Below, piece by piece: positions 685 to 43,885 of a stretch of DNA of 64,000 nt. Source of the stretch: Candidatus Eisenbacteria bacterium (GTDB lineage: Bacteria; Eisenbacteria; RBG-16-71-46; JAFGJU01); contig JAPLKG010000014.1 in assembly GCA_026388185.1 (NCBI GenBank), positions 1 to 64,000 of the forward strand, written 5' to 3'. A program made the translations under genes and the position numbers. The number at the start of each line of letters is the position of its first letter. Position 1 is the stretch's first letter. The notes below the pieces were generated by a model. The model did no database searches. It was not told where the DNA came from and saw only the letters and a list, made by a program, of their open reading frames with translations.

Positions 685-1731
685 CTAGATGATATTGTAC
701 CCTGCCGTCGGAAAGAACCATTGCTCAACGCCGACCGCCAGGACTCTGGGACGAAAAGGGGTACCGGCTGCAATTCCAGCAATCTCTATGATCTGAGGCA
801 GCGCAGGCTTGAGATCAAGCTTGACCTTGGTGAAGTGGAGCAATTCCTGGACTGTCGATATCGAAAGCACCTGCGCTTTCCTCTCACCAGTGTCAATATC
901 GATTTCACCCATGGGGAGTATTTGGCGGAATGGGGTTCGAAGTCGAGCCTCGATTTCCAGAATCAGTGTTCGGTAGAGTGGATCTGTTGCGAAGGTCGAG
1001 CCAATTGGGACATTGTACAGTTCCTTGATGAGACGATCTCCGTTGACTATGACCTGATGAGCGTTCTGAAGCGATTGGACAAGAGCGCTGATGTCTTTGA
1101 AAATCAAAGGGACATCTCCGACGATTTGACCAGTATCTATGTCAAGGGAAATTCCAAACTTGGACGTTGGCGTCTCCAACTGTGATAAGATGTTATCGAC
1201 GATCTTCTTATCTACCCAAGTCCCGTCATAGTCCAACTGGCGATCGTACAGGGCTGTTAAAAGACTCATGCTTCCATCGGATACCCTTGCTTGCAGAAGC
1301 TGTCTGACGAGCGCGCCCGGATCTGCAAACTTCGATGGAGAGCCGCCAATTGCCAAAAGCAGCTGTCTAAACGCTGTTTCGTAGCTGACAAAAAAGTCTG
1401 CATACGATTTGTCCGAAATCCAGATTGGTATTGCACAATCGTCAATTCTCCCCGGCAAGAGAAGTCTGCGACCTACCCTCTTCTCAACCGTCTTGGCAGT
1501 TTCGACTTCACGTCGAACCCATTCGGACTGAATTGAATCACGAGAAAGAAGCACAAGAACGAAGTTTGAGTCACTAATTGCGTTGACGATCTTGGGCTCG
1601 AAGAACTCTCCAATAGGTACTTCCCATTGGTCAATCCAGACTTCTGCACCGTTGCTTATGATATCTGTTGCCAGCTTGAGCGCAAACTGCTGATCAAGTC
1701 TGGCGTAACTGATGAAAAGAAATGGTTTCAT
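685..1731 (-). CDS. TIR-domain protein, putative NAD-cleaving effector
   Basis: 348 residues. Residues 3-130 form a TIR domain: strand F-L-F-I-S-Y-A at 4-10, V-W-I-D-Q-W at 31-36, and S-E-W-V-R-R-E at 69-75, where the Glu sits at the position of the catalytic Glu of bacterial TIR NADases. The remaining ~215 residues match no family I recognise and may sense a ligand or mediate oligomerisation. No membrane segment is seen. A Shine-Dalgarno AAGGA precedes the ATG. It is followed at once by the small helical gene at 238-669. Bacterial TIR proteins commonly act in antiphage defence (Thoeris, CBASS, Pycsar and short-Ago systems), but no SIR2, nucleotide cyclase or Argonaute gene is nearby. Confidence 0.8.
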   Translation of the reverse strand: MKPFLFISYARLDQQFALKLATDIISNGAEVWIDQWEVPIGEFFEPKIVNAISDSNFVLVLLSRDSIQSEWVRREVETAKTVEKRVGRRLLLPGRIDDCAIPIWISDKSYADFFVSYETAFRQLLLAIGGSPSKFADPGALVRQLLQARVSDGSMSLLTALYDRQLDYDGTWVDKKIVDNILSQLETPTSKFGISLDIDTGQIVGDVPLIFKDISALVQSLQNAHQVIVNGDRLIKELYNVPIGSTFATDPLYRTLILEIEARLRTPFRQILPMGEIDIDTGERKAQVLSISTVQELLHFTKVKLDLKPALPQIIEIAGIAAGTPFRPRVLAVGVEQWFFPTAGYNII

Positions 1732-3381: not shown

Positions 3382-3493
3382 AGACTTTATGGATCTGGCT
3401 GGACTCCTCAACTAACCGTGCGTTAGTGCGCCGCTAATGGAGCAGCACCATCTTCCGCGTGGCCACGAAGCCGCCGGACTTGAGGCGGTTAAG
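3368..3493 (-). repeat. Composite repeat ending in orphan secretion tail, copy 1
   Basis: Read on the minus strand, 3493-3434 encodes L-K-S-G-G-F-V-A-T-R-K-M-V-L-L-H and a stop, with no gene in front. The DNA next to it (CTTTATGGATCTGGCTGGAC and onward) recurs with many substitutions at 3833-3949. It looks like the 3' end of a lost tailed gene together with its downstream sequence. Confidence 0.6.
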
Positions 3494-3832: not shown

Positions 3833-3949
3833 CGCATATGAGTCACCTTATCTGACTTTATGGATCTGCCTGGACTCCTTCACTAATCATGCGTGAATGC
3901 GCCTACCGCAACACCACCTTCCGCGTGGTCACGAAGTTGCCTGCTGCAC
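3833..3949 (-). repeat. Composite repeat ending in orphan secretion tail, copy 2
   Basis: Diverged duplicate of 3368-3493. The minus strand of 3949-3903 encodes A-G-N-F-V-T-T-R-K-V-V-L-R and a stop. The two copies flank the small Cys-rich gene at 3508-3711. Confidence 0.6.
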
Positions 3950-5710: not shown

Positions 5711-6043
5711 TTGACGCGCCCCGAAATCCTGTAGTCCGCGCATACCGCTCGAACCTAGCCGCTGGATGGATAGCCACTTTTTCGCACTGCTTTCGGTTTT
5801 GCCAGGGCTTCTGCTATTCCAAGCGGGTTAGGCGGCGCTTCCCAGAGGCTAGGCGTCAATGCCCACCTCCCAAGAGATAAGGCCGCACAGCGCCTGTGTT
5901 GCGGCCGCGTGGCGAACTGTGGGACAACAGCGCCCTGCAATTGCCCTCATCTCCCAGATTCTTCGCATAATCCCGTTGACTGTCTCAGGGCACAGAGCGT
6001 TCATGGTCACAGCTTGAGAATCCACTGGAAGGGAGGTGAGCCC

Positions 6044-6910
6044 ATGAAGCTTTCGACAGCTATCATGCGCTTCGACACTCAGCTTCGGGCAGACGGCAAG
6101 AGCGAGCGTACGCGGCAGGCGTACCTCAGGGATCTGGGCAAGCTCCAGGACTGGCTCGGCACCGATGGTGCGGTCACGGCCATCAATCCCAACACGCTCG
6201 CACGTTTCCTTGCCGATGGGAACGGCAAGCCAAAGTCCGCGCTCACCGTCAACAGAACCAAGACGGCCTTGCGTGTCTTTTTCCGCTTCCTCAGCGACGC
6301 AGGGTATCTGAGCGAAAACCCGGCAAGGCTCATTCGCTCGACCCCAACTGACAGGAGAGTGCCGAGCTACTTGTCTATCGACGAAGCGAGGGGATTGCTC
6401 GATGCAATCACCAACTCTGACAGCGCCCTTGCCACACGAGACCACGCGATGTTCTCGCTCCTCCTCGGCACTGGCATTAGGCTTGGCTCGCTTGTTGCCT
6501 TGAACGTATGCGATGTGAACCTCGCTGAGGGAACCGTGACAATCAAGGTCAAAGGTGGACGCGAAGAAACCGTCTTTCTCAACAAGCAACTCTGCCGGCT
6601 GCTCGGTGGGTACGTCAGACCTCTGAACGCGACTGATGGAACGCCGCTCTTCTCCTCTCGCCACGGCGGTAGACTTGGCCCGCGCCAGGTTCAACTGAGG
6701 CTTAAGCACTGGCTCGCGAACGCTGGCATCGCCCGGCCACTCTCGATCCACTCGCTGAGGCACACCTTCGCCACCCGGCTCTACAGCAAGACCGGTGATT
6801 TGCGGTTGGTGCAACGAGCCTTGGGCCACAAGCACATCACAACTACCGAGATCTATGCCAGGGTGGAGGACAGCGCACTCAGGAAGGCGCTGGAAAATCT
6901 CTCTTTGTGA
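6044..6910 (+). CDS. XerC/XerD-like tyrosine recombinase, copy 1
   Basis: 288 residues. An N-terminal SAM-like core-binding domain (~1-95) is followed by the catalytic domain. The conserved residues are present: Arg146 (G-T-G-I-R-L), Lys near 168-170 (K-V-K-G-G), His236/Arg239 (H-S-L-R-H-T-F-A), His262 (L-G-H-K-H) and nucleophile Tyr271. It is a site-specific recombinase acting on DNA. GGAGGTGAG lies 5 nt before ATG 6044. It is followed by a ~400-nt leader and a large secreted-protein gene, an arrangement repeated at 32.4-37.4 kb. Repeat B lies upstream in direct orientation and downstream inverted, so the gene is bracketed by inverted copies. It may be a mobile element or serve local rearrangement. 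Confidence 0.9.
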   Translation: MKLSTAIMRFDTQLRADGKSERTRQAYLRDLGKLQDWLGTDGAVTAINPNTLARFLADGNGKPKSALTVNRTKTALRVFFRFLSDAGYLSENPARLIRSTPTDRRVPSYLSIDEARGLLDAITNSDSALATRDHAMFSLLLGTGIRLGSLVALNVCDVNLAEGTVTIKVKGGREETVFLNKQLCRLLGGYVRPLNATDGTPLFSSRHGGRLGPRQVQLRLKHWLANAGIARPLSIHSLRHTFATRLYSKTGDLRLVQRALGHKHITTTEIYARVEDSALRKALENLSL

Positions 6911-7306
6911 TGGTTCGTCGAATCGGCACTATACGAAGTTGGGCTTGACGGGGCGGCTCCCTCCAGGTGACTGAGAGGTATTTGTCTCTTGAGATGTAGT
7001 AGCTATGTGATAGAGGTTTTCGCTTGTGTTAGCGATACTCTGGTGATATAGTACGACCGTGAGTCAATTGAAAGTGACTCAGCACATCGGATCTCTGACT
7101 CTGATAATGGCGGATGCACCAATGTTTCGTGGCCCTGCACAATTCGTGCGTCTGCAGAGGAGATTGAGCCCTGCAGGGTTTGCGGTGGGGCTTTTCTGTC
7201 TGGTTGGAGGTGGACAGGCTCAGCTCGACTTGCTCCCGAGTGTCTCGGCCGAGGTTTGCTTCGGGTCAGGAGCCTTGGGTTTCCCTTGGTAGTAGGAGGT
7301 GCGCCG
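6911..7306 (+). promoter_or_regulatory. Conserved leader between recombinase and secreted-protein gene, copy 1
   Basis: This stretch has no credible gene, yet it is closely matched at 33196-33623. It holds an inverted repeat-B copy (7017-7056), a perfect 7-bp inverted repeat TGAGTCA-N8-TGACTCA at 7060-7081, and a possible -10 GATAAT near 7100. Conservation over most of its length suggests a long 5' leader with a regulatory role, although recent duplication alone could also explain it. Confidence 0.5.
7017..7056 (-). repeat. Dispersed repeat B, inverted, downstream of recombinase copy 1
   Basis: On the minus strand it reads CTATATCACCAGAGTATCGC followed by TAACACAAGCGAAAA, close to the family consensus. 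It is opposite in orientation to the copy upstream of the recombinase. Confidence 0.7.
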
Positions 7307-10300
7307 ATGAGACAAAAGTTAGCGGGTCTTCTCATCCTGCTCGTCGGGATTACGATGACAGCGGCTGTTGCCGGAGCCAAGGAGATCGAGAGACGAGTAC
7401 CCATCGTTGATGATGGAACCAGTATGCTTCCGATGGGTCGCGTGTACGGCGTGAACGCGGCCATGCAGGGCACTGACACGTTCTACTATGGTGGAACGGT
7501 CATATCCGGTGGCGACACTCTCGCTGCCACGCCTGCTGCTGCCGGCTGGGCAAACGCGAAGATGTGGACTTGGAGTCCTGCCGGTTACAACGGCACTCCC
7601 CATAGCGGCCTCAACATGGATGGCTGGCGCGGCCTGGACCGAACAGATCAAGTGGAAGACTACATGCACGTTGCGAGCAGCACGAGCACCGATCCCTATT
7701 ACAACATTGGGGATTGCGTGATTGCCGGCTACAAGTCTCTGTTCTGCGGTATGACAAACCAGCAGTGTACAGATCTCTGTGTCAGTGACGTGAATGGCAC
7801 TGGCTATGGCAACAACATGCGCCAGACCGTTGCCACGCCGACCTATAGGTACTATGGCGGCGACGCAGTCACTCTCGGTTACAAGTATCACGATGAGAGT
7901 GAGCCGGGTTTGGACTACGGTCACTGCATACTGCAGATTTATGATGCGGACGCTTGGGAGTGGGTCAACCTTGACACGCTGGCGACGTACACTGACGTGA
8001 TGGACGGGACGGAGAGCATAGACGTCGGTTCATACCTGGCGATCTATACCGATTCGGTTGATTTCCGCATCGCGTTCAAGTTTGACTCGGACGGTGGGTA
8101 CTCGGACGAGGACGGCTACTATACAACCGAGTGCGGTGGTCTGGAAATCGACAACTATGTGCTCACCATCAACTCGACGCCCGTGGAAAGCGAGGACTTT
8201 GAGTCCGTCGCTGACGGTAGTTTGCCGACCGGGTGGGAGCATTACTATGGCGGCGCTTGCGGCGACTACGCTCACGTGGCGCACGTCAACGATCTGCCCC
8301 TGATGTTGAGCCAGGATGTTTGCTGGACCGTTGTTGGTTCGTCGTGGTGCGCGATGGCGGACAGCGTGTTGGTGTTCTACGATGAGAGCAACCTTGCCTA
8401 TCCGCATCCGTTGTGTCAGGACAACGTTGCGTATTCGCCGGTGATAGATTTCTCGGGGCATCCTGGGTTGCCTGGCAAGCTGTTCAGCTGTGAGAGGTTT
8501 GGGTATTCGCCGCTCGTCATGTACATCTTCTTCTACTACGAATGCAGGTATGCGCCTGCGTGCGCGTCAGGTGGATGGAGTGGATGGTTGAGCGACGGTT
8601 ACGTTTACTACACGGGTGAGACAGCGTCATGTCGTCCGTTGACCTACGACATATCGACGTCGCTACCGCCGACAGCTACTAAGGCACAGATAGCGTACGG
8701 CGTTATCAACTATTGCGATGAGGATCCGTGGGGATACCACGACTGTTCTTACACATGTAACGCTACACCGTACTTTGACAACGTGTCGTTTGGTTTGTAC
8801 GGGTCTGACTTGGCTCCGTACATCAGCATGAGAGAGCTGGATTATTTCCAGGATCAATTTGCTGAAGACGGAACTCTGAGCCCGACATCCACGGCAGACA
8901 CGAGAATAGCAGGCTATTTGAGTGACCTCGATCCTCCGATCTTTGGAGACACGATGGTGTGCCGTGGTGGTGCGGATGACATGGAAGTGTGGTTGACCTT
9001 CCGTATGGCGAAGGTGGGGCCGCAGCAGCCTGTTTCGAACGCGTTCTTCACGACGTGGTTCCCGACAGTTACTACGGGTGCGTGGCAAGAGGCCAGGATG
9101 GACACTGGTCGTGCCACCGCTTCTGGTGGAGCTACGACGATCGACGTTCCCGGGACCTGGATGACCTGCTTCCACGAAGCTGATCCTGTCAGGGTAGCGA
9201 ACGCGTTGCCGGAATTGACCGAGATACTTCCGAACAACTTGTTTGTACCCGGAACTAGGATTGAGTACTTCCTGAAGGCACGTTACACGGGATCGAGCTA
9301 CTGGTTCTTGCTACCTGACACGACTGGTGGAGTTTCGGAGGAGTTTGAGATTCTGCCGATGATGAGGAGCGACGATTACGGTGGCGTGGAGTGGCCATGC
9401 TTGATAGTTGCAGATCATTTTGGTCAAAGAGGTAACTGGGGTCTGAGGAACTCTGATAGGATTGCTCAGCATCTAGCGGCTAACAACTACGCCTACGACA
9501 TGTTCAACAAGCTGGGACCGACGAGCGCGTTGAAGAACGGTATTGCTCGTTGGGCGGCCAACACCGGCCAGATTGGTGGACCCGGGACCGACAAGTACAA
9601 TTGGGGTCCTGGCGCGACAGTTGTACAGATGTTGGCCTACAGCTATTGCATGTTAAACGCAGGTACGCAGCTCAACTACAGCATGTATGAGCAGGACGTT
9701 GACCTGATCAACAGTTGGTTGGTCAGGTACTCATACTATGATTCTCCCAGATTCTTCTGGTTGAGTGGCAATGGGGCTGCGAGATGGTTGTACAACCAAT
9801 CTATGGCTAGCAGGGCGTTTCTGAACAACATTCTGGGCACTTCGTACGTGACCAAGGACTACGCGGCGTTCACGGGCGACTACACCTACTGCTTGCCTGT
9901 GAGAGGCGTAGCAGGTGGTGCGTTGCCCGACACGACGTTGTTTGTGATTCGCTCGAACGGGTGTTTGAATACGTACAACGTGCTAGGAGTGTCCGGTTCT
10001 GCAGCTGGCGCGAAGGCTGAGAGGCAGTATGACTCGAGGCCGACGGCCAGGTACGCGGCAGTCAGCAACAACGTTGCGGTTAATGATGTTACACACTACA
10101 AGTCGTTGGTAGAGGGGTACGACAACTGCTTCGTCAGGACTGACGGTTCCCTCGGGTATCCTGCCTGCGGCAACGACAACATCCTGACTCAGTGGTTCGC
10201 CTGGGTACTGGGTTGGGCTGGCTACTCCGAGTACTGGGCGCCGTGGTGCCAGTGCCCGGGGGAAGTCTGTTGCTGTCTTCCCCCCGGCGTCGATCCTATC

Positions 10301-10594
10301 AGTGCGCCGCCTGCAGTGAGTACGTCGTTGACGCAAGCGTATCCGAACCCGATGAATCCGACAGCCGCTATGAAGTACACCGTGGGTGCGCCTGGTAAGG
10401 TAAGCCTGAAGGTGTTCGATGTTAGTGGCAGGGTCGTCAGGACGTTGGTAGACGAGACGAAGGCTACGGGTCGGTACACCGTGATTTGGGACGGTAGAAC
10501 GGATCGTGGTGATAAGGTCGCTAGTGGTGTGTTCTTCTATCAACTTGACGCTCCCGGATACAAGAGTGCGAAGAAATTGGTGATTGCCCAGTAG
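7307..10594 (+). CDS. Large secreted protein with FlgD-like C-terminal tail, copy 1
   Basis: 1095 residues. It starts with a signal peptide (L-L-I-L-L-V-G-I-T-M-T-A-A-V-A-G-A). The body is rich in Cys, Tyr and Trp and matches no family I recognise; it has jelly-roll-like strands (E-D-F-E-S-V-A-D-G-S-L-P-T-G-W-E-H-Y). The C-terminal ~90 residues are the FlgD-type Ig sorting tail: Y-P-N-P-M-N-P, V-R-T-L-V-D, W-D-G-R-T-D-R-G and S-G-V-F-F-Y. AGGAGGT precedes ATG 7307. Residues 1 to ~970 are about 80-90% identical by eye to the protein at 33624, but the tail differs. Just after the stop, 10601-10651 encodes the end of another tail, so this gene's tail was replaced. Likely exported or surface-bound. 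Confidence 0.85.
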   Translation: MRQKLAGLLILLVGITMTAAVAGAKEIERRVPIVDDGTSMLPMGRVYGVNAAMQGTDTFYYGGTVISGGDTLAATPAAAGWANAKMWTWSPAGYNGTPHSGLNMDGWRGLDRTDQVEDYMHVASSTSTDPYYNIGDCVIAGYKSLFCGMTNQQCTDLCVSDVNGTGYGNNMRQTVATPTYRYYGGDAVTLGYKYHDESEPGLDYGHCILQIYDADAWEWVNLDTLATYTDVMDGTESIDVGSYLAIYTDSVDFRIAFKFDSDGGYSDEDGYYTTECGGLEIDNYVLTINSTPVESEDFESVADGSLPTGWEHYYGGACGDYAHVAHVNDLPLMLSQDVCWTVVGSSWCAMADSVLVFYDESNLAYPHPLCQDNVAYSPVIDFSGHPGLPGKLFSCERFGYSPLVMYIFFYYECRYAPACASGGWSGWLSDGYVYYTGETASCRPLTYDISTSLPPTATKAQIAYGVINYCDEDPWGYHDCSYTCNATPYFDNVSFGLYGSDLAPYISMRELDYFQDQFAEDGTLSPTSTADTRIAGYLSDLDPPIFGDTMVCRGGADDMEVWLTFRMAKVGPQQPVSNAFFTTWFPTVTTGAWQEARMDTGRATASGGATTIDVPGTWMTCFHEADPVRVANALPELTEILPNNLFVPGTRIEYFLKARYTGSSYWFLLPDTTGGVSEEFEILPMMRSDDYGGVEWPCLIVADHFGQRGNWGLRNSDRIAQHLAANNYAYDMFNKLGPTSALKNGIARWAANTGQIGGPGTDKYNWGPGATVVQMLAYSYCMLNAGTQLNYSMYEQDVDLINSWLVRYSYYDSPRFFWLSGNGAARWLYNQSMASRAFLNNILGTSYVTKDYAAFTGDYTYCLPVRGVAGGALPDTTLFVIRSNGCLNTYNVLGVSGSAAGAKAERQYDSRPTARYAAVSNNVAVNDVTHYKSLVEGYDNCFVRTDGSLGYPACGNDNILTQWFAWVLGWAGYSEYWAPWCQCPGEVCCCLPPGVDPISAPPAVSTSLTQAYPNPMNPTAAMKYTVGAPGKVSLKVFDVSGRVVRTLVDETKATGRYTVIWDGRTDRGDKVASGVFFYQLDAPGYKSAKKLVIAQ

Positions 10595-10600
10595 CCTCGC

Positions 10601-10651
10601 CTTGAAGCCGGCGACTTCGTGGCCACGCGGAACGTGGTGATAGTCAAGTAA
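10601..10651 (+). pseudogene. Orphan last 17 codons of a replaced secretion tail
   Basis: This segment reads L-E-A-G-D-F-V-A-T-R-N-V-V-I-V-K and a TAA, without any start or upstream domain. It lies at exactly the place, relative to the downstream terminator, where the paralogue at 37382 has its own tail end I-K-A-G-D-F-A-A-S-R-K-M-V-M-L-R. The copy-1 gene therefore once ended here. Confidence 0.8.
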
Positions 10652-10676
10652 TTGCACCTAGGAGCCAAACACAATC

Positions 10677-10706
10677 GAGGGGCTGGCTCAGCGCTGGCCC
10701 CTCTTG
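10677..10706 (+). terminator. Terminator of the GAGGGGC...GCCCCTCTTGC type
   Basis: GAGGGGCTGG and CTGGCCCCTC form a stem with a 7-nt loop, followed by TTGC. The same hairpin and flanks follow the paralogous gene (37408-37437), and variants follow several minus-strand genes. The U tract is poor. Confidence 0.65.
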
Positions 10707-10783
10707 CTGTCATCGCGCAAAGACTCTATGTGGCCGGACAACGTGGTCACGAAATTGCATACTGTCCATGGCTCGATACCACT

Positions 10784-11368
10784 CTATTTATCATCAAGCG
10801 GTATCGGCGCAAGCCCACGTTCAAGCCTGTACTTGTTGACGATCTGACGGAAATCGAGCGTTGACTGTTTCTGCTCCGCGTTCACCGTCTGCGTCACCAC
10901 AAAACCCTTGCGAGAGATGAAGCCAGAAAGCTCGGCCAACCTCTCCAGTATCTCCACGGCCCTCTGCAACAAGATAGCCTGCGCATACGGATCAGGGATC
11001 CTCGTCCCTTCCTTCGTTTGTCTCTGCGCATCCTTGTACGCCATCAACGCAAGCGAGAAGAGTCCCTCAAGCTTCGTCACAATCTCACTCTTCCGCTCGA
11101 CCGAGTTCAGGGCCTTCGCGTTCTCCTGCATGCAAAGCTGGTAGTCTCTCCAGGCACGCTCCCCCGTCATGGGCTCAAACCCATACGCACAGATCCGCTC
11201 CCCTATTTGGTCAAACGTGAGGTTACCGATGGTCCGAAGCTCTGCAACTCTCTTGCGCCGTTCCCCATAGTAGACCCGGCCTCTGATGGGGCGATGTCTT
11301 CTGACTGCCTTCACGTCTCCATCCCCGGGGGCAACCTGGTCAGGCAACTGCTTCTCTGACGCGCTCAT
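10784..11368 (-). CDS. Helical DNA-binding-like protein, possible phage terminase small subunit
   Basis: 194 residues. The N-terminal third is basic and contains a helix-turn-helix-like stretch (R-K-R-V-A-E-L-R, L-T-F-D-Q-I-G-E-R-I). The rest is helical, with a charged C-terminus. Its start overlaps the 3' end of the ParB-methyltransferase gene by 29 bp, so the two are translated from one message. In phages a ParB-methylase gene is often followed by a terminase small subunit, which this could be, but no large subunit or structural gene is present. Strong AGGAGG before the ATG. Confidence 0.5.
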   Translation of the reverse strand: MSASEKQLPDQVAPGDGDVKAVRRHRPIRGRVYYGERRKRVAELRTIGNLTFDQIGERICAYGFEPMTGERAWRDYQLCMQENAKALNSVERKSEIVTKLEGLFSLALMAYKDAQRQTKEGTRIPDPYAQAILLQRAVEILERLAELSGFISRKGFVVTQTVNAEQKQSTLDFRQIVNKYRLERGLAPIPLDDK

Positions 11369-12629
11369 AGCCCCCTCCTATCAGATTGCCGTCCCTGAGC
11401 AAGAGAGCCTTCTGCCCTGTGAAGCGCTCCCATCTCACCACTGCCATGTCCACGTAAGTCGGGTCGAGCTCCACCGCATAGCAGACCCTCGTTGTCATCT
11501 CGGCAGCTATGATGGCCGTCCCGAAGCCCGCAAACAAATCAAGGCATGGCTCGAGTGATAGAGCGTTGTTCCTCATCGCCCTTGCGAAAAGCTCCACAGG
11601 TTTCTGCGTGGGATGTTTGTGATCGGTCTCTCGCGTGACTTCCCACACCGTCGACTGATTCCTCATGCCCACGAACCTGTGCTTCGCTCCCCAACCGTAG
11701 AGGCAAGGTTCATGACGCCAGTGGTAGTCTGCTCGGCCAAACTGGAAGTTTTCCTTCACCCACACTATTTCCTGATGGACTTCGACTCCGACTGACCTCA
11801 AAGCCTCGATGAATATGTCTCTCGTCACGCTCGCATGCCACACGTACCAGGAGGCATCCGGCGTTGAGACTTGAGCAGCAGCCTTGAATGCCGCAGTCAG
11901 GAACTCCAGCAGCTTCTCTCCCTCAAGGTCGTCGTTAGCAATGGGGCGATACACGATGCCGCCTCCGTGCTTCGTCGGGCTTACCTTCCTCCGGTGCTGG
12001 TTACCGTCGTAGGCAACGCCGTAGGGCGGGTCAGTGGCAACGAGCACAGCCTTCGCTCCGTCCATGAGCCGCTTCAGCGTCTCCGGCTTTGTTGAGTCGC
12101 CGCATAGAAGGCGGTGTCGGCCAAGTTGCCAGAGGTCACCTGGTTTGCTTACGGCCTTCTCAGGCTCCTCCGGAATGGCGTCCGGATCGACCAACCCCGC
12201 GTACCCTTCTGGCGGAAAGAGCTTCTGAAAGTCAGTCTCCAGGATATCCAATCTCAGCGCTGCTGTAAGTTCAGGCAGCTCTATCTTGAGTTCCTGAAGA
12301 ATCACTCCCAAGCCAGCACTCCAGTCGCCCTGGATGTGACGGCTGTTGAGAGCGATGTTCAGCGCCTTCTCACGCTCGGGGTCAAGGTCCACTACCACGA
12401 CATTCGTGCTCTTGACCCCGGTCTGCTCCAGCACCTTGAGCCGTTGGTGGCCTCCCACAACGTGGCCGGTTCTCTCGTTCCAGACGATTGGTTCCACAAG
12501 ACCGAACTCGCCGATGCTGTGGGCAAGCCCGTCGAGAGCATCGTGTGAGATCTCGCGCGGGTTGTAAGGCGCAGGCTCAAGCTTCTCGATGTCCACTTCT
12601 CGAATGTCCATTTCCATCTTATCTCCCAT
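11340..12629 (-). CDS. ParB-N domain fused to beta-class DNA methyltransferase
   Basis: 429 residues. Residues 8-100 form a ParB/Srx-type N-terminal domain (L-E-P-A-P-Y-N-P-R, V-V-G-G-H-Q-R-L). The rest is an N6-adenine or N4-cytosine methyltransferase with D-P-P-Y at 200-203 before the S-adenosylmethionine loop L-F-A-G-F-G-T near 365-375, the order of the beta class, and the H-P-T-Q-K-P motif. Such fusions are typical of phages and integrated elements, where they methylate DNA without a cognate endonuclease. An in-frame ATG at 12617, with GGGAG 5 nt upstream, is an alternative start. Likely prophage or plasmid remnant. Confidence 0.85.
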   Translation of the reverse strand: MGDKMEMDIREVDIEKLEPAPYNPREISHDALDGLAHSIGEFGLVEPIVWNERTGHVVGGHQRLKVLEQTGVKSTNVVVVDLDPEREKALNIALNSRHIQGDWSAGLGVILQELKIELPELTAALRLDILETDFQKLFPPEGYAGLVDPDAIPEEPEKAVSKPGDLWQLGRHRLLCGDSTKPETLKRLMDGAKAVLVATDPPYGVAYDGNQHRRKVSPTKHGGGIVYRPIANDDLEGEKLLEFLTAAFKAAAQVSTPDASWYVWHASVTRDIFIEALRSVGVEVHQEIVWVKENFQFGRADYHWRHEPCLYGWGAKHRFVGMRNQSTVWEVTRETDHKHPTQKPVELFARAMRNNALSLEPCLDLFAGFGTAIIAAEMTTRVCYAVELDPTYVDMAVVRWERFTGQKALLLRDGNLIGGGYERVREAVA

Positions 12630-12730
12630 TCTTCCCCAGCAACGACGGAAGCGCGGGTCGGTTGGTGCTCCTAATGTCGGGCGAGTCTAGCTGCCACGAA
12701 ATCGCAGAGCGCCCGCGCCTCCGCATCTAA

Positions 12731-12901: not shown

Positions 12902-14119
12902 TCAGTTGACGCCAGCTAGGTATTCAGCAAAATGCCTACGTACCTGCCGATTACCAACAAACTGCCAAAGTAGTCGGTAGTTGCTCTGTTCTTTCCGAAT
13001 GCGTCCAGCCACAATGGCTGGGTCAATTCCCAGTCTCTTGGCGTATTCCCTAAGTGCGCCCGGGGTGTAACTCCGACGTACCGATGTGCCTGCCCAACTT
13101 CTTGGCGGAATCAGCGACTTCTCAGCGAACGAGTCTGCTTCTTTTTCCTCTGAGTCCCCCTGGGCGTCAAGGTCATCGAAATACTGTTTCTTCTCCGATT
13201 TTTCAATGTGCAGAGCCAGATGGCCCAATTCATGGCACAGACAAAACCAGAAATTATCCAGCCGATCGTACCTCAGTGTTACCGCTACCACCGGCGTCTT
13301 ATTATCAATCAGCATTGCTGCACCATCAAGGTGGGTCCGGGGCAGGTGTGATAGAACCACAAAATGGATTCCACTTTTCCCCAGAAATTCCTTTGCGAGC
13401 AAGGGGCCCTCACTGAAACTGCTCAGTCTCACTAGCTTATGCATAAACTCATCATCTATGGTGCCCGGTTTATATGCTGCAGACAGAGTTTGGCCGCGCG
13501 CCAGCTCTACTACGCGAGCCGCCCATCCTGCGAGGGAATAGTCGTCCATTTGCGAGCCGCGTCGGACGTGCTGCCGCAAGAATACTGACCCTACCCCCGC
13601 TATTCTTGCTCGTTTGAACAGCCCAGTCACAAGCTCCTCCGCACAGTCAAGGGCATCTGATGGCCTGCCGCGGAATTCAGGAAACATATGGCGTATAGCC
13701 ATCTCTTTAATCGGGAATCTGTTCCACTCGGTTGACGATTGGGTTTCGGTCGTCGCCGAATCCTGCCGTTGCAGGAGAGCCTCTGCTGGAATGCCAAGTC
13801 CCGCGTGAAGAGCCCGGATCATTCTGAGGGTAAGCGGCCGCTTACCACTAAGTACTTCTGAGACTCGGCTACGGCTACCGAAATACGGCACCAGATCACG
13901 TTTCGTCAACCCTTGCTGTTCCATCCGAAACTCGATCGCCTCTATTGGAGTCGGCGCTGCGACCGGGAAATGTTCTTCTTCGTATGTTGAAACGAGGAGG
14001 GCGAGAAGCTCAAGGCGGTCTCTTTCCTCAGTGCGCGCCGCAGGGTGATGCTGCATAAGCTTCTCCACTTCACGGACAGCCATCTTGTGCTGGCTTTCCG
14101 TCTTTATTACCTTAACCAT
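12902..14119 (-). CDS. HigA-type antitoxin fused to ImmA/IrrE metallopeptidase
   Basis: 405 residues. The N-terminal part (~20-115) resembles HigA: acidic helical region, then an Xre HTH (G-L-T-K-R-D-L-V-P-Y-F-G-S-R-S-R-V-S-E-V-L-S-G). The C-terminal half is an ImmA/IrrE peptidase with H-E-L-G-H near residue 300 and E-A-D-S-F-A-E-K downstream as Zn ligand region. It probably represses its promoter and neutralises the upstream HigB; the peptidase may degrade a repressor or the antitoxin itself. ATG 14119 is chosen because AGGAGG lies 6 nt before it. The gap to higB is 10 bp. Confidence 0.85.
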   Translation of the reverse strand: MVKVIKTESQHKMAVREVEKLMQHHPAARTEERDRLELLALLVSTYEEEHFPVAAPTPIEAIEFRMEQQGLTKRDLVPYFGSRSRVSEVLSGKRPLTLRMIRALHAGLGIPAEALLQRQDSATTETQSSTEWNRFPIKEMAIRHMFPEFRGRPSDALDCAEELVTGLFKRARIAGVGSVFLRQHVRRGSQMDDYSLAGWAARVVELARGQTLSAAYKPGTIDDEFMHKLVRLSSFSEGPLLAKEFLGKSGIHFVVLSHLPRTHLDGAAMLIDNKTPVVAVTLRYDRLDNFWFCLCHELGHLALHIEKSEKKQYFDDLDAQGDSEEKEADSFAEKSLIPPRSWAGTSVRRSYTPGALREYAKRLGIDPAIVAGRIRKEQSNYRLLWQFVGNRQVRRHFAEYLAGVN

Positions 14120-14129
14120 CAGATACCTC

Positions 14130-14411
14130 CTAGTCTCTCCTTGAATATTCAGCGTGTGTGCCAACCCATCGGATCACTACAATGCTGAGTTCATAATCAA
14201 TGCGGACCTCTAAGCGATATTTGTTCCCGCCTATGTTGAAGATAACGATGTCGTCGGCAAGGAAGCTACTGGCTTGATACCTTGCCTTGACTTCTTGCGG
14301 ATTCGCCCATTGGGCGCCCTCGACTTCTTTAAGCCAGGCGCGGAGGCGGCCAGCCGCGTCCGCGTGCTTAAGAATCGCTCTCCTGAGAACGTCCCTGCCA
14401 ATGACCTTCAC
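14130..14411 (-). CDS. higB: HigB-family mRNA interferase toxin
   Basis: 93 residues from a GTG at 14411. The family pattern is clear: K-V-I-G-R-D-V-L, A-W-L-K-E-V, W-A-N-P-Q-E-V-K-A-R-Y, F-N-I-G-G-N-K-Y-R-L and V-G-T-H-A-E-Y. HigB cleaves mRNA at the ribosome. The GTG start gives the usual family length, and no ribosome binding site precedes it. A TTGACA / 17 bp / TACGCT promoter puts the transcription start at or next to the GTG, so the message may be leaderless. It is first in the operon, toxin before antitoxin, as usual for higBA. Confidence 0.85.
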   Translation of the reverse strand: MKVIGRDVLRRAILKHADAAGRLRAWLKEVEGAQWANPQEVKARYQASSFLADDIVIFNIGGNKYRLEVRIDYELSIVVIRWVGTHAEYSRRD

Positions 14412-14787: not shown

Positions 14788-17235
14788 CTACCTGATCAAG
14801 ACCATCTTCTTTGTCTCACTGTACCCGGGCGCATCTAGCACGTACACGTAAACCCCCGAAGCAACTCCACGATCGCTGTCGTCCCGACCATTCCATGTCA
14901 CGTCATACCTGCTCGCCTCTCTCATGCCATCGACCAGAGTCCGAACAGGTCGACCCGCTACATCATACACAATCAGCGTCACCAAGCCGGGTTCGGCAAT
15001 CGCAAAGCGTATCACGGTCATCGGATTGAATGGATTCGGAGCGTTCTGCTCAAGAAGAGAAACGGCAGGAACCGCAGGCGGACCTGAAGCTCCTGTTATG
15101 TCCTCCGGCCTCAACAGCGCATACTCGCTTTCATTCTCATGAATATCCCACGCACTCACCTTGTAGTAACTACGAGTTGGATCAAACGACGTGTCCACGA
15201 ACGACGTGTCCGAAGGCGTTCCTATCCGATTACTCTCGCTTGGAACAAAACCCTCGCCCTCCCCCTTGTACACGGCATAGTGGGACAGATCGCCCTCCTT
15301 GTTCGGCTGCCATGTTATGACGACTTGAGCTGGCTGATAGTTGAGCCCACCGGCCAACCCGCTCGGCGGAACAGGGGAGAGATTGTCTACACTGTAACCG
15401 CTATCAGGAGCTGAAACCCAGAACTGAGAAGGGTCGGCACCATGAGCTATCACCTGGAAGTAATGATGTTCATTACATACGGACGTTGAATCAAACAGCG
15501 TGGAAACTACCTTGGAGTAGCCATCCAGGTAGTAAGCCTTAACCTCTGACATCAGCTCCCAATAGAAGGTTTCCCCCTGCACTTCCTCGACACGAAGTGC
15601 CTCACCTCCAGTCAATGCCAGCGCTTCAGATGCCGACGTCAAGACATGGGCTCCCTGTTCCAGCAAGCCTGCCATTCGCTCAGGAGTTATCGCTCTCCAC
15701 ACCGTGTACTTGGAGATAACCTCCTCAGGCCATGGGTCAAGTCTGCTCGCGTCCCAGGCAACATTCACATTGCCGCCCTGGTCTCCAGGTACATCTCTCA
15801 CAGCTTTGATACTAGCTGCCGGGTAGCCCCAGTAACCATTTCTCTCCACCCGCTGCGCATAGATGTCATAGTTGAGCGCGTAGTTGCTCGCGCTACGGGA
15901 GTCTAACCATGTCACGATCGCCTCGCCTACAGCGCCAGTTGTGATTGCGGGACCGAACTGGTTGCCACTCGCCGTGCACAGTGCCACTCCGTCTGGTGCC
16001 CACTGAACAACACCCGAAGCGTTTACCTTCTGCACGTAAACGTCAAAGCTAGCGCTACGGTAATCATCCCACGCCACAATCGCCCCGCCTGCACCATCTG
16101 ACGTCATTTCGGGATACAACTCGCCAGCTGCAGTGCACAGTGCCACCCCATCCGGTGCCCACTGAACAACACCCGAACCGTTCACCCTCTGCACATAAAT
16201 GTGAGAGCTAGTGCCACCGCCACGGGCGTCCTGCCACGCCACAATCGCCCCGCCCGCGCCATCTGACACGATTCTGGCACCCTCCTGACGGCCAGCTGCA
16301 GTGCACAGTGCCACCCCATCCGGTGCCCACTCAACTCCACCCCAACCATTCACCCTCTGCACATAAATGTCATAGGAACCCCCGCGTGTGTCACTCCACG
16401 CCACAATCGCCCCGCCTGCATCATCTGACGTGATTGTCTGACTCCACAGGTCGCCAGTCACCGAGTACAGTGCAACCCCGTCAGGAGTCCACTCAACACC
16501 ACCCCAAGCGTTCACCCTCTGCACATAAATGTCATGGTTGCTCAAGTTACCGCCGGATCCATGCCACGCCACAATCGCCCCGCCGGCACCATCTGACGTG
16601 ATTCTGGGATAGCTCTGCTCGTAAGTTGCCGTGCACAGTGCCACTCCGTCTGGTGCCCACTGAACCACACCCGAAGCGTTTACTCTCTGCACATAAATGT
16701 GAGAGCTAGAGCCACCGCCACGGTCGTCCTGCCACGCCACAATCGCCCCACCCGCACCATCTGACGTCATTACGGGCCGGAACTGCTTGCCAGCTGCAGT
16801 GCACAGTGCCACCCCGTCCGGTGCCCACTGAACAACACCAGAACCGTTCACCCTCTGCACATAAATGTCATAGTCGTTCCCTCGTGTGTCCTCCCACGCC
16901 ACAATCGCCCCGCCCGCACCATCTGACGTCATTACGGGCCGGAACTGTTTGTCAGTTGCCGTGCACAGTGCCACCCCGTCCGGTGCCCACTGGACAACAC
17001 CCGAAACGTCTATCCTCTGCACATAGATGTCGTAGTTACCGCTCCGGGTGTCGGTCCACGCCACAATCGCCCCACCCGCGTCATCAGACGTGATTGTGGA
17101 ACCTTGCAGATCGGCGGTTGCCGTGCACAGTGGATTACCATTCTCGACCCACAAGCCGAAAGAACACGCAGGAAACACCTGAACCAGCGTCAACACTAAC
17201 AATACCCATAGCAACATTCTCCAGGTCTTTCCCAT
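14788..17235 (-). CDS. Secreted repeat protein with fibronectin-like domain and FlgD-like tail
   Basis: 815 residues. A signal peptide (M-L-L-W-V-L-L-V-L-T-L-V) is followed by eight ~53-residue repeats (A-P-D-G-V-A-L-C-T-A, T-S-D-G-A-G-G-A-I-V-A-W, D-I-Y-V-Q-R-V-N), probably a beta-propeller. A fibronectin type III-like domain comes near residues 560-720, then the tail N-A-P-N-P-F-N-P, V-R-T-L-V-D-G, S-G-V-Y-V-Y and K-K-M-V-L-I-R. The repeats are also visible in DNA (about 15830-17150). ATG 17235 follows AGGAGT. The frame stays open upstream to a second ATG (17361) with AGGAGGAGGT that encodes another complete signal peptide, which looks like a fused relic. Exported; role unknown, possibly adhesion or carbohydrate binding. 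Confidence 0.8.
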   Translation of the reverse strand: MGKTWRMLLWVLLVLTLVQVFPACSFGLWVENGNPLCTATADLQGSTITSDDAGGAIVAWTDTRSGNYDIYVQRIDVSGVVQWAPDGVALCTATDKQFRPVMTSDGAGGAIVAWEDTRGNDYDIYVQRVNGSGVVQWAPDGVALCTAAGKQFRPVMTSDGAGGAIVAWQDDRGGGSSSHIYVQRVNASGVVQWAPDGVALCTATYEQSYPRITSDGAGGAIVAWHGSGGNLSNHDIYVQRVNAWGGVEWTPDGVALYSVTGDLWSQTITSDDAGGAIVAWSDTRGGSYDIYVQRVNGWGGVEWAPDGVALCTAAGRQEGARIVSDGAGGAIVAWQDARGGGTSSHIYVQRVNGSGVVQWAPDGVALCTAAGELYPEMTSDGAGGAIVAWDDYRSASFDVYVQKVNASGVVQWAPDGVALCTASGNQFGPAITTGAVGEAIVTWLDSRSASNYALNYDIYAQRVERNGYWGYPAASIKAVRDVPGDQGGNVNVAWDASRLDPWPEEVISKYTVWRAITPERMAGLLEQGAHVLTSASEALALTGGEALRVEEVQGETFYWELMSEVKAYYLDGYSKVVSTLFDSTSVCNEHHYFQVIAHGADPSQFWVSAPDSGYSVDNLSPVPPSGLAGGLNYQPAQVVITWQPNKEGDLSHYAVYKGEGEGFVPSESNRIGTPSDTSFVDTSFDPTRSYYKVSAWDIHENESEYALLRPEDITGASGPPAVPAVSLLEQNAPNPFNPMTVIRFAIAEPGLVTLIVYDVAGRPVRTLVDGMREASRYDVTWNGRDDSDRGVASGVYVYVLDAPGYSETKKMVLIR

Positions 17236-18071
17236 CTCAACCACTCCTTTCTTCTGGCGCCCGCATATGATGTCGCGGTTGATGCCGGCAGGGTGGCTCC
17301 ATGCTGCATTGGAGAACAGGGCGGAGAACAAGGCGAGCACAATGAGGAACGGTTTCTTCATGGCGACCTCCTCCTTGAGATGGAACACCCAGCGGTGGCT
17401 GGCACCTCTGAGTGAACTCTGGTCAGCCTTGTCCCGGCGGAGCAATGTTAAGACCAAGGAGTTGGACAGCCATCATGGGTAGACTTACCTGCCCAACGGC
17501 AATTATGTCACAACGGTACCGCTAATGCAAGAAAGAAATACTTGCCACAATCTCGGGCCGCCAGTACCGCTCCAAGCTCTGAAGCTCGTCTAACTGATCG
17601 TGTGCACCCCAAGCCTCGACCGCAGCGTGAGATTTCTCACATACACCCCCTTCGTTTGCCCTAAGTTCGGACCGGACCTCCGGCATGGCAACGTAGGGTA
17701 CACGAGAGTCCGCGTCCCTCGGAAAAGGTACTTCATAGAAAGCGACTTCGACCTGCCTCTCCTTTGGATTTGCCTTTGCGCCTGCCACGAAGCAGCGGAG
17801 AATGGCTTTCTGCTTGGACAGTGGTGCAGCCAGAAAGGCAAGAGGCGTGAGCGACGGGCAAATCACTCGAATCTATCTCGGCAATCAACTGGCGTGTGGG
17901 CTCCGTTTCCACAACTGCTCACTGCGGTCACAGCTGCGAAGCGAGTGCTCACCTAGGAGCCTAGCGAGGTCTCAGTCAATCGCCGGCTATTCGACCATCG
18001 TCAAAGCGTAACTCTATCTCTTGATAGCGGGAGGCCTCATAGGGGTCAGACCGCAGAAGTAGCTAGCGTTG
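17236..18071. other. Gene-free region with relic signal peptide and repeat A
   Basis: 17236-17361 (minus) encodes an in-frame signal peptide that may be a remnant start. A repeat-A copy is at 17635-17698, and a degraded repeat-D segment lies near 17905-17945. No other credible coding sequence. Confidence 0.5.
17635..17698 (+). repeat. Dispersed repeat A
   Basis: TTTGCCCTAAGTTCGGACCG and GGACCTCCGGCATGG, preceded by a TCTCACATACACCCCC segment. Near-identical copies are at 25115, 26545 and 39861. Confidence 0.75.
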
Positions 18072-19915: not shown

Positions 19916-19985
19916 GGGCGCGAGACTTCGGCTTCCCTCCGGCGTCTCGAGTGTGTACCGCGTTCCCACGACTGCGCACAGAACA
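19916..19985 (+). repeat. Dispersed repeat D, following repeat C copy 1
   Basis: Core CGTTCCCACGACTGCGCAC preceded by a CGCGAGACT segment. The same C-then-D order is found at 27951-28146. Confidence 0.6.
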
Positions 19986-20338
19986 AGAAAGAGCAAGGCC
20001 GGCTATCATAGACGGCCCTCACTCAGCTTGATGTTACTTCTTCTCTCCTGGCACACCTATTCCCTAACGTTCCACCTTTGTTTCCCACGCGCTCTCGCGG
20101 ACCGACGTGCTTCTCGGTGTAGGCATAGGCAGGCTTGTTGACCTAGTTTTCCAGCTGAGGGCATTCCAGCAAGCAGCAAGGGGCCGCGCCTTGGTTCACC
20201 CATTCTCTGCGGGCCGCAAGAGCCTGATCGGGAACGCGTGGAGGCAGTGAGATGTGATACCGACTGAAGTGTGCCTTGCCGTCATCCGAGTACTCTTGCG
20301 GAGAGAGGGTCTTCGGCAATAGAAGCAGTTTGGCGACA

Positions 20339-24608: not shown

Positions 24609-24936
24609 GCCGAACATCTCCTTCCACGACTCCCCCCTGAATTACCTCTTGCCCATGAACGCAGAGAGGCGGCTACCCTAGTGACCGCCTCCGGCATGTC
24701 CGGACGAGAATGGGGCCGGGTGTTCTCGATATGGATGTCAAGTCGCCAGTAATCACATCGTCAATCAATATGCCAGACGGTTAGGATTGGGCCTGGCTGC
24801 GTTTCTCGCTTAACTTGCAAGGCGATTGCGAGGTTGGGGGTCGCCATGAATTGTGGCGAGCAGGCTAACTTGAATTATCCTCAACTAGATGATCTGACGC
24901 GGTGACTGAATCCAGCAGCATAGGTAAAGCCACCTA

Positions 24937-25004
24937 TCAGCTGCATTCGCCTGATGCACCGCGCATCATATCACCAAAGTATCGCCAACGCAAGCGAAAA
25001 CGCC
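24937..25004 (+). repeat. Dispersed repeat B, full copy
   Basis: CAGCTGCATTCGCCTGATGC, then CGCATCATATCACCAAAGTA, then TCGCCAACGCAAGCGAAAAC. One of the best-preserved copies. TTCGC near the left end and GCGAA near the right end are inverted to each other. Confidence 0.75.
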
Positions 25005-25114
25005 CGTGAAGCGCTCTAGGATCAAATGGCAAGGGTCCGACCTATGTCAGACCCCTCAAAGCGAGTAATTGTTAACTGCGCGACACCGTTACAGGCTTAG
25101 CACCGTAGTGCGGT

Positions 25115-26544: not shown

Positions 26545-26621
26545 CCTCGACCTTCTCAGCTGCAACCTCCTCACATGAAACCCCATCGTTTGCCCCAAGT
26601 TCGGACCGGACCTCCGGCAAA
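26545..26621 (+). repeat. Dispersed repeat A, upstream of the MNT/HEPN module
   Basis: Contains CTTCTCAGCTGCAACCTCCT and CAAGTTCGGACCGGACCTCC. It ends 50 bp before the promoter of the MNT gene; a variant-2 copy lies 67 bp after the HEPN gene. Confidence 0.75.
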
Positions 26622-26670
26622 CTCGCAATCAGGACTGCCAGATCGGCACGACACGCGTCACTCAAAGTGC

Positions 26671-26699
26671 TTGACGCGCGTACCCAAAACGGGTACGTT
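26671..26699 (+). promoter_or_regulatory. Promoter of the MNT/HEPN module
   Basis: TTGACG, 17 bp, TACGTT. The predicted start is about 4 nt before ATG 26710, leaving almost no leader. The box sequences resemble the higBA promoter (TTGACA / 17 / TACGCT). Confidence 0.5.
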
Positions 26700-26717
26700 C
26701 GTACCCGAAATGGGTAC
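26680..26717. promoter_or_regulatory. Two tandem palindromes, likely operator of the MNT regulator
   Basis: GTACCC-AAAAC-GGGTAC (26680-26696) and GTACCC-GAAAT-GGGTAC (26701-26717), 21 bp apart centre to centre, so on the same face of the helix. The first overlaps the -10 region, the second overlaps the start codon. Confidence 0.7.
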
Positions 26718-27321
26718 AACAACGGCAATCGACAGTCTCTCTGCAGTCCTCTTCGGAAAAGCCCGACGAGCGCTCTTGTCTTTGCTTTTCACTCATGTTG
26801 ACCAACTCTACTACATCCGACAGATTGTGCGCATTGCCGGAGTCGGCCAGGGAGCAGTCCAGCGAGAGCTTACGCAGCTCACTCGCGGCGGCATCGTGAC
26901 GCGAATTGCTCGTGGAAGGCAGGTTTACTACCAAGCGAATCGGCAATGTCCCATTTTTCAGGAATTGCGTTCCATCGTGGTGAAGACGGCGGGCCTAGGG
27001 GATTTCCTGAGATGCGCTCTTGAGCCTCTGGTTTCCAAGATCAAGATTGCTTTTGTGTATGGTTCGATGGCGTCAGCGAAGGAGCGCAACAGTAGTGACG
27101 TGGACATCCTTATCGTGGGTAATGTGTCGTTCGGCGACATCGTGTCTCTGCTGGGTCCTTTGCAGGAGACCTTGGGGCGAGAGATCAATCCTTCCGTCTA
27201 CTCTCGCGCCGAATTCCGACGAAAGCTCTCTCAGCACAACCACTTCTTGCGTAGTGTCACCAATGGGGAGAAGCTCTTTATTATAGGAGATGAACGTGAC
27301 CTTGCGAGAGTGGCTAGATAA
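26710..27321 (+). CDS. Winged-helix/MNT nucleotidyltransferase, antitoxin-type regulator
   Basis: 203 residues from ATG 26710. Residues ~15-90 form a winged HTH (Y-I-R-Q-I-V-R-I-A-G-V-G-Q-G-A-V-Q-R-E-L). Residues ~110-190 are a minimal nucleotidyltransferase with G-S-M-A-S-A-K and S-D-V-D-I-L-I, the GS...DxD signature. MNT proteins paired with HEPN proteins form toxin-antitoxin modules in which the MNT enzyme modifies the HEPN toxin; this one can also bind DNA. The frame is open upstream, but the palindromic operator and promoter there argue for the internal ATG. It overlaps the HEPN gene. Confidence 0.85.
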   Translation: MGTTTAIDSLSAVLFGKARRALLSLLFTHVDQLYYIRQIVRIAGVGQGAVQRELTQLTRGGIVTRIARGRQVYYQANRQCPIFQELRSIVVKTAGLGDFLRCALEPLVSKIKIAFVYGSMASAKERNSSDVDILIVGNVSFGDIVSLLGPLQETLGREINPSVYSRAEFRRKLSQHNHFLRSVTNGEKLFIIGDERDLARVAR

Positions 27322-28075: not shown

Positions 28076-28146
28076 GGCGCGAGACTGCGGCCCTCCAGCG
28101 TCGTGAGCGTGAACACCGTTCCCACCACTGTGCACCGCGTTCACAG
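28076..28146 (+). repeat. Dispersed repeat D, following repeat C copy 2
   Basis: CGCGAGACTGCGGCCCTCC, then CGTTCCCACCACTGTGCACC and GCGTTCACAGC. Also at 28798 and 43836, next to tail sequences. Confidence 0.7.
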
Positions 28147-28184
28147 CACACAGAGTCATAGTGCTATAGTCATGCGTCCGGCAC

Positions 28185-28769: not shown

Positions 28770-28797
28770 CACAGCCTCCTTTTGATTCTCGTGGATG

Positions 28798-28902
28798 CCA
28801 TTCCCACCACTGTGCACCGCATTCACAGCTGCGAAGCCAGCGTTTAACGCAAAAAGCGCCATCTTCCGCGTGGCCACGAAGTCGCCTGCGTCGAGGCGGT
28901 AA
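28798..28902 (-). repeat. Repeat D joined to orphan secretion tail
   Basis: On the minus strand 28902-28845 reads Y-R-L-D-A-G-D-F-V-A-T-R-K-M-A-L-F-A, then comes repeat D (28832-28798). The same tail-then-D order is seen intact at the 3' end of the gene at 43886-44695, so this is a relic of such a gene end. Confidence 0.65.
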
Positions 28903-28947
28903 CTGGTGCGAATCTAGCTTACTCGCCCGCTAGTATTCAAACACCGC

Positions 28948-29886: not shown

Positions 29887-30518
29887 TGTTGGTCTCCTTC
29901 CTTGTTCTACTGAACGACATAACTCTTTCCCGGACCCGAGATCGCCGGCCGCTACGTTCAAAATAAGTCTGTCGGTTCTTCTGTATATGGCAAAACCGCA
30001 TCGCCGAGAATCAACCACCTCCTTACAGTATGCAACCTTCACTCAGGCAGACAGGATGCGATCCTGCCAACAGAGAACAGTATACCAACCGTCCTCGGTT
30101 GAAGAATTGTGACATGGGTTGCAGTGTCCTCAATTGACTTGCGTATCAACGCTCACTTTCAGTTAGCCGCAGCTACGATTTGAATCAGGCTACTAATTGT
30201 GAGCAAAGCCACTGACTCTGAAGGTTGCTGCGAAGAATGCTTCACACAAAGGTGAATGGCAACGAGTGGAACACACGGTCAATTACTGTTCTCAAATCAT
30301 GTACCGCGCACTATATCACCAAAGTATCGCTAAGGTAAGCGAAAACGCCTGCTGGCTTAGAACCTCGGAAACGGCGAGTACCTGTAGGCCCTCACTGTGG
30401 CACATCTGGTCGCTCTACCTTACCCCATGCCCTATCGGCGGCCCTCGAACACAAACTACACCCAGCACCACCCGTCGCCAGCAGCAAGATGGCGTGATCG
30501 CGCACGACATGGAGCACG
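29887..30518. other. Gene-free region with long repeat-B relic
   Basis: Holds repeat B at 30302-30349. The 65 bp after it (CGGCGAGTACC..., CCTCACTGT) still resemble the 5' coding part of recombinase copy 2, so the whole is a recombinase remnant. Confidence 0.5.
30302..30415 (+). repeat. Dispersed repeat B extending into recombinase-like sequence
   Basis: CTATATCACCAAAGTATCGC then TAAGGTAAGCGAAAACGCC. Downstream, CGGCGAGTACC and GGCCCTCACTGT match 32512-32540 inside the recombinase gene. Confidence 0.65.
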
Positions 30519-32243: not shown

Positions 32244-32419
32244 TCCAAACCCCCTTTATATCTGCACAAGCATGCCTGCATCTCGGAAGGATGACGTAGA
32301 GAACAGATTCGAGGGCTCTCCCACGGGGGTGAATGACAGCGCTGAGTCTTTCTATGGCAGGTTGAATGAATCCTGTCCATTGTAATCCCCTGATCTACAT
32401 TTGGCTGTCCAACGACGGC

Positions 32420-43872: not shown

Positions 43873-43885
43873 CCGACGAGCGCGC

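Follow-up and report, generated by a model that had tools for sequence, protein, structure and literature searches.

Displacement of C-terminal parts is known from Rhs, contact-dependent inhibition (CDI) and type VI secretion system (T6SS) effector loci (PMC3150448, PMC8125069, PMC5361080), and the orphaned 3' ends at Rhs and effector loci have been attributed to paired homologous and illegitimate recombination (PMC8125069, PMC5361080). Here we describe a surface-protein gene, termed copy 1, within a window corresponding to the initial 64 kb of contig C14 in a genome of Candidatus Eisenbacteria (G000; 2.62 Mb, 20 contigs, each designated by C and a number). To our knowledge, this lineage is known only from metagenome-assembled genomes. 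The secretion tail of cargo proteins of the type IX secretion system (T9SS) is usually treated as a fixed sorting label. Copy 1 is a chimaera in which the 3' segment for the secretion signal is of another type than the old one, whose last codons persist behind the stop codon, and C-terminal displacement of a T9SS sorting tail probably explains this arrangement.

Copy 1 (7307-10594, plus strand) encodes a protein of 1095 amino acids and consists of a body (7307-10217) and a new short tail with its own TAG stop (10592-10594). Its paralogue in the window, copy 2 (33624-37382, plus strand), is of the long type, in which the body, reaching to 36519, is followed by a long module with a dockerin-like stretch and an intact sorting tail. 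The DNA of the two copies is homologous over 6512-10217 / 32803-36519 (83%), or over 6242-10228 of copy 1 with looser scoring. The similarity is then lost entirely and returns at 10605-10757 / 37336-37487 (77%, E 6.5e-28), starting inside the last codons of the copy 2 tail. An earlier note on this sequence had set the breakpoint at about 10215/36535 and had called the modules behind it unrelated. The paralogues are indeed alike up to there, with the ends corrected to 10217-10228 / 36519-36530, and the modules are unrelated as DNA, yet they terminate in one common type of protein domain. The module of copy 2 is longer and has an extra dockerin-like stretch.

At the left junction zone (10218-10286, plus strand), long-type homology ends at 10217-10228 and clear homology to a short-type gene on contig C5 begins at about 10287. 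The new tail module (10287-10594, plus strand) carries an FlgD-Ig-like T9SS type A sorting domain, with DNA identities of 77-83% to the short tails on C5, C7 and C2 and of 70-81% to that on C11; taken from about 10287 to the stop, the identity amounts to 80% for C5, 83% for C7, 82% for C2 and 81%, over part of the tail, for C11. The same body accompanies the short tail on C5 and C11. At the right junction zone (10595-10604, plus strand), homology to the short type (C5/C7) ends at 10593/10594 and homology to the old type begins at 10598-10605.

Six bases past the TAG of copy 1 begins the orphan tail end (10601-10651, plus strand), which by DNA homology and by a hidden Markov model (HMM) represents the last 16 codons and the TAA of the old long-type tail (LEAGDFVATRNVVIVK followed by the stop). 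The frame behind the TAG, which is that of copy 1, reads P-R-L-E-A-G-D-F-V-A-T-R-N-V-V-I-V-K-stop. Compared with the tail end of the long-tailed gene on contig C10, the orphan scored 30, while the best of 2000 shuffles scored 13, and the tail-end HMM assigned it 18.5 bits against about 6-8 bits seen for background pieces. As both scores far exceed background, chance similarity of the orphan to tail ends is excluded. Further downstream, a terminator-like hairpin (10677-10707, plus strand) is common to the flanks of copy 2, the C10 gene and a tail gene at 14788-17457. The downstream flank (10605-12647, plus strand), spanning the converging genes 10784-11368 and 11340-12629 of a methylase region, is 85.6% identical over 2 kb to the flank of the intact C10 gene, converging methylase region included. 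The observations of the earlier note behind the copy 1 stop, namely remnant codons of an old tail followed by a flank and a terminator matching those of copy 2, were thus borne out: the orphan represents the end of a tail, and the copies have homologous downstream flanks.

The C10 gene is 84% identical to copy 2 and has the long module with an intact tail ending in AGEFAATRKMVMLR and a stop, so placed that this old-type tail stands exactly where copy 1 has the orphan. C10 ends inside this gene, and contig C1, which carries the N-terminal part, starts there with an exact overlap of 141 bp. As judged from this overlap, which has the size of an assembler k-mer, C1 and C10 likely form one locus. 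The integrase farther upstream on C1 is 80% identical to the integrase before copy 1. Since copy 1 matches this combined locus in the integrase, the body and the 2 kb downstream, it agrees with a long-type locus to either side of the tail module, in which the two differ. For the body of copy 1 the nearest relative is copy 2, for its tail C5/C7, and for the DNA behind the tail C10.

Several paralogues are cut by contig breaks, so that some copies are partial; the body is a repeat, of which several copies are broken off at contig ends that overlap exactly over 141 bp. These properties could point to an assembly chimaera in a metagenome-assembled genome. However, across 10594-10605 there is no identical stretch of 141 bp, and the arrangement is also found on a second contig and in a single-contig genome of another genus, which makes an assembly artefact very improbable.

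The assignment of the tails to T9SS was based on profile matches. The NCBIfam model TIGR04183 (T9SS type A sorting domain) matched the C-termini of copy 1 (29.2 bits) and copy 2 (28.3 bits) above its cut-off of 23, as it did the tails of neighbouring genes, and by Pfam both tails are FlgD-Ig-like (PF13860). The Pfam model Por_Secre_tail remained under its cut-off of 27 for copy 2 (21.7). Throughout the genome there were 60 tail matches, and SprA_N was found over its cut-off in a single open frame at C8:145428-146627. An export function of the tails is predicted from this family membership. In the library searched, we found no paper on tail swaps in T9SS or on T9SS in Eisenbacteria.

The distribution of tail types was compared with the relationships of the bodies in a phylogeny of body DNA (1729 columns, five paralogues), a preceding protein tree of the body being too weak. 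The tree grouped copy 1 with the long-tailed copy 2 (support 100/99). Constraints that joined the long-tailed copy 2 and C10 gene (p-AU 1.6e-56) or the short-tailed copy 1, C5 and C11 genes (p-AU 2.2e-60) were both rejected. As judged from these trees, a single origin of either tail type is rejected, and the type has switched at least twice among the five paralogues, because neither constraint was compatible with the data. The relative G002, a single-contig genome of another genus in the same family, likewise carries both tail types.

Tail genes with an orphan tail end behind them, for which the earlier note had proposed a search in other genomes, were found at two further sites. On C19, an orphan (2133-2177) lies 17-20 bp behind the tail gene 1379-2116. 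In G002, the gene 769707-771077, which is homologous to the end of the copy 1 body and has a short tail ending in KKIVILQ and a stop, is separated by 10 bp from an orphan downstream of it (771088-771156, GGLYFYRLQAGEFVATRKKVLLK and a stop); the sequence immediately upstream of this case is masked. The left ends and the downstream sequences of the three cases are all different, which suggests that they arose as separate events. A search with the tail-end HMM, covering mostly loci with 1.5 kb of flank and part of the relatives' tails, revealed no further tail gene with an orphan. The orphan might also serve as a functional second tail through stop-codon readthrough, as the one behind copy 1 is in frame with its gene. 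However, those on C19 and in G002 are out of frame with theirs, indicating that they are scars rather than readthrough tails, and other orphans stand behind genes with no tail. As a general explanation readthrough is refuted by these frames, and also for copy 1 it is scarcely credible. Under C-terminal displacement, the orphan behind copy 1 is probably untranslated scar DNA, and the protein would keep a sorting signal of another subtype.

Tail-end DNA was present at eleven sites of the genome, four of them intact tails and seven orphans (C14: 152, 3446, 3912, 10610 and 28857; C19: 2136 and 9606). Across the class (47 genomes), this DNA was found only in G000 and in one intact tail of G002; its DNA form is therefore lineage-specific, and finding orphans elsewhere requires a protein profile. 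The remaining orphans of the window, all on the minus strand, are located at 3434-3493 and 3903-3944, each followed by an insertion sequence (IS) tip, which is 50 bp long at the former, at 143-190, immediately before a group II intron 5' end located at the edge of the contig, and at 28851-28904, behind the untailed gene 28948-30042. Two intact tail genes with the same tail-end DNA, also on the minus strand, lie at 40082-43357, 145 bp before a tRNA fragment at 39936, and at 43886-44695. An inverted-repeat sequence (GTGAACGCGGTGCACAGTGGTGGGAACGGTGTTCAC) was observed at 28790-28840, 28096-28147, 43822-43873 and C19:2190-2237; it follows an orphan tail end twice and an intact tail gene once.

In the mechanism that we propose, the ancestor of copy 1 would have been a long-type gene with an integrase upstream, the body, a long tail module, the terminator and the converging methylase region. 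DNA of a short-type paralogue would have paired homologously with the body and introduced the short tail with its own stop, and the far end of the incoming DNA, just past this stop, would have been joined illegitimately inside the last codons of the old tail. The rest of the old module, which measures about 815 bp in copy 2, would thereby have been deleted, leaving 16 codons and the stop stranded. One homologous and one illegitimate joint would fit the data because the left zone lies at the edge of the conserved body, the right joint is sharp and just past the incoming stop, and the old 3' end is retained. The chimaera, its junctions, the types of donor and recipient and the recurrence belong to the observations, whereas the direction of the exchange, the donor molecule, the pair of joints, the number of steps and continued export by the tail belong to the model. 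The reading of the earlier note, that a new tail with its own stop was put in front of the old one, is supported by the intact old tail at the C1 and C10 locus and by the occurrence of the new type in at least three genes (C5, C7/C2, C11), but a displacement with deletion is indicated instead of a simple insertion.

The main rival is a deletion between neighbouring tail genes, in which a short-tailed copy 1 stood before a second tail gene of the long type and lost the DNA from behind its own stop to the last codons of the second gene. Two illegitimate ends would yield an identical junction, and tandem tail genes are frequent (43886 and 40082 in the window; C14:101522/105188; 769707 and the gene ending at 774568 in G002). 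This scenario fails mainly on parsimony, as it requires an extra gene of which none is seen, the C1 and C10 locus having one such gene only, and it leaves the different tails of the sisters copy 1 and copy 2 unexplained. We therefore regard it as rather unlikely.

Several points weigh against C-terminal displacement. The illegitimate joint is not seen directly, since the DNA downstream of the donor's tail is absent from the data, and the right junction (10595-10604) displays no clear microhomology. The body trees can be blurred by gene conversion among the paralogues. In addition, five of the eight orphans do not stand behind tail genes, so displacement of one tail by another cannot explain all of them, and the three that do are unexpected with respect to the genome average (0.0008) but not with respect to a tail-rich island (0.09).

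The surroundings of copy 1 bear on a further explanation. A repeat of the window (D12) proved to be a tRNA-Leu 3'-end fragment that is present in six att-like copies, all in one orientation (minus strand) and with two types of adjoining sequence: 39904-39936 (type I) and fragments starting at 27854 (type II), 26619, 25188, 17685 (type I) and 14615 (type II). By similarity, a single tRNA-Leu(CAA) was found in the genome, at the start of contig C20 (120-208). The sequence before it (GGACTCTCGTGTACCCTACGTTGCCA) is the same as that before fragment 17685, a linkage of C20 to C14 that crosses a contig gap. In G002, about 7 bp separate a tail gene from the intact tRNA-Leu downstream of it, and the orphan is directly followed by a fragment (771164); tRNA and fragment are on one contig and in the same orientation. 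Three intervals hold about one gene: 17685-14615 is filled by the tail gene 14788-17457 (minus strand), 26619-25188 by an epimerase gene and 771164-774575 of G002 by a tail gene. An Xer-like tyrosine recombinase with readable R, K, HxxR, H and Y catalytic positions is encoded upstream of copy 1 (5909-6910, plus strand), and an N-terminally shortened one upstream of copy 2 (32401-33195, plus strand). With these two genes for six fragments in the window, the members do not each have an integrase of their own. An integron was rejected, as TIGR02249 reached 91.9 bits against a cut-off of 265 and the best matches, to XerC/XerD models, were also under cut-off.

These features raise the possibility of site-specific cassette integration, in which the 30-bp tail-end DNA would be an attachment site. 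Inserting elements with their own tail end would push the original 3' end downstream, as at tRNA and orfX islands, and the orphans would be displaced att ends. In line with this, the core of the tail end is near-identical in 11 places, most orphans share one orientation and lie downstream of intact tail genes, Xer-like integrases adjoin both copies, in G002 an intact tail end adjoins tRNA-Leu and the orphan adjoins a tRNA-Leu fragment, and a second gene family, described below, is arrayed as a full gene followed by orphan 3' ends. However, the left borders of the orphans do not coincide as those of a fixed crossover would: in G000 they lie 0 to about 24 bp upstream of GGCGAC, and in G002 the distance is about 50 bp. 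In addition, nothing stands between stop and orphan in the three tail-gene cases, and the new tail end of copy 1 differs in type from the site supposed here. Part of the conservation peak is also an artefact, as the orphans were located by a pattern on their core, whose high identity is thus in part a selection effect. A 10-bp palindrome in the tail end (CGTGGCCACG) was dropped as a recombinase site, being broken in the G002 copies. Taken together, site-specific integration appears clearly improbable for copy 1.

The second family is that of a 182-amino-acid protein (MAKKAKKGNGK...RAVMAGK). In arrays of this family, the full gene precedes up to 11 copies that comprise its 3' end alone, with the terminator, and are oriented as the gene is. 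They were recorded at C11:25038-38756 and also at C1:11027-14003, C10:119751-123314, C13:5052-6590, C18:62244-66543, on C19 and in the window at 19965-20143 (minus strand), where a 166-bp repeat (19970-20135) was first taken as attC-like and proved to be another coding 3' end. The copies are 5'-truncated at varying points, several of them at positions 419-421 and 473-475 of the query, and genes for a DUF4062 protein, a histidine phosphatase and a TPR protein lie between them. An 81-bp fragment of the start of this gene is present at 37541-37621 (minus strand), just behind the copy 2 flank and on the same strand as the fragment 19965-20143. The arrays look like a gene-cassette array built on the 3' end of a gene. 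In a wider hypothesis, the conserved 3' ends of both multi-copy families, the sorting-tail end and that of the 182-amino-acid protein, would be recombination ends for gene cassettes, with cargo strung behind a full gene, each unit closed by the 3' end and terminator and moved by Xer-like recombinases in trans, which would make the copy 1 orphan a visible product of a cassette system other than an integron. We view this hypothesis with considerable doubt.

Other features of the region were also recorded. Candidates for defence genes in the island are a strong match to PD-Lambda-2_B (PADLOC, 478 bits; 12902-14164, minus strand), a match to PDC-M05A (246 bits; 26575-27321, plus strand) and, at 685-1731 (minus strand), a gene for a TIR-domain protein; the island also has a methylase. 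A 50-bp repeat at 3382-3434 (minus strand) is the tip of a multi-copy IS-like element, the first codons of which (MSQYI) run off four contig ends (the ends of C14, C5 and C12 and the start of C11), and such tips stand, with no IS, behind the orphan tail ends 3446 and 3912. Group II intron 5' ends (GTGCCC.GCAAAGGGCGCG) are located at 1-140 of the window (minus strand), directly behind an orphan tail end, and at the end of C12, directly at an IS tip. A dispersed promoter-like repeat (TTGCGTTAGCGATACTTTGGTGATATAATGCG) precedes several genes including both secreted-protein copies (24935-25005, 30299-30349, 7016-7055, 33334-33372, 43410-43472), and an HdrA-like protein is encoded at 58925-60946, for which Candidatus Eisenbacteria CP070702.1 (isolate bin56) gave the closest full-length match (74%). 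Given the tRNA-Leu fragments, recombinases, defence genes, IS tips and intron start, the tail swap took place in a very active island. In this region, such scars are tied to arrays of orphan gene ends as well as to a tRNA-Leu island.

This island resembles tandem tRNA islands as collected in Islander (PMC4383910) in having several 3'-end fragments in one orientation besides an intact tRNA-Leu, with tyrosine recombinases nearby. It differs from them in that six fragments lie within about 25 kb, at intervals down to 1.2-1.4 kb, several of which hold about one gene and no integrase, and in that the intact tRNA-Leu on C20 is linked across a contig gap. Domain exchange has likewise altered T9SS-associated surface proteins of Porphyromonas gingivalis, where the parts of the account available to us describe no orphan tail end, unlike here (PMC5266723). 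With T9SS type A proteins (TIGR04183, PF13860) the proteins described here share a tail match above cut-off and SprA_N in the genome; unlike the usual members, they belong to Candidatus Eisenbacteria, not Bacteroidota, and the tail itself is swapped between paralogues. As in displacement at Rhs, CDI and T6SS loci, copy 1 has a conserved 5' and an exchangeable 3' part, with paralogues alike in the former and different in the latter, and its old 3' end is retained directly downstream, on the same strand and with no start of its own, as are those on C19 and in G002. In contrast to Rhs and CDI loci, what has been displaced is a T9SS sorting tail instead of a toxin domain, there is no immunity-like gene pair behind it, and only 16 codons are left, so that the orphan cannot be reloaded as a module. 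These findings indicate that T9SS cargo carries a secretion tail that can itself be exchanged as a module, and that swaps of it leave recognisable scars. Past tail swaps could be counted in any T9SS genome through its orphan tail ends. C-terminal displacement would be extended from toxins to export signals.

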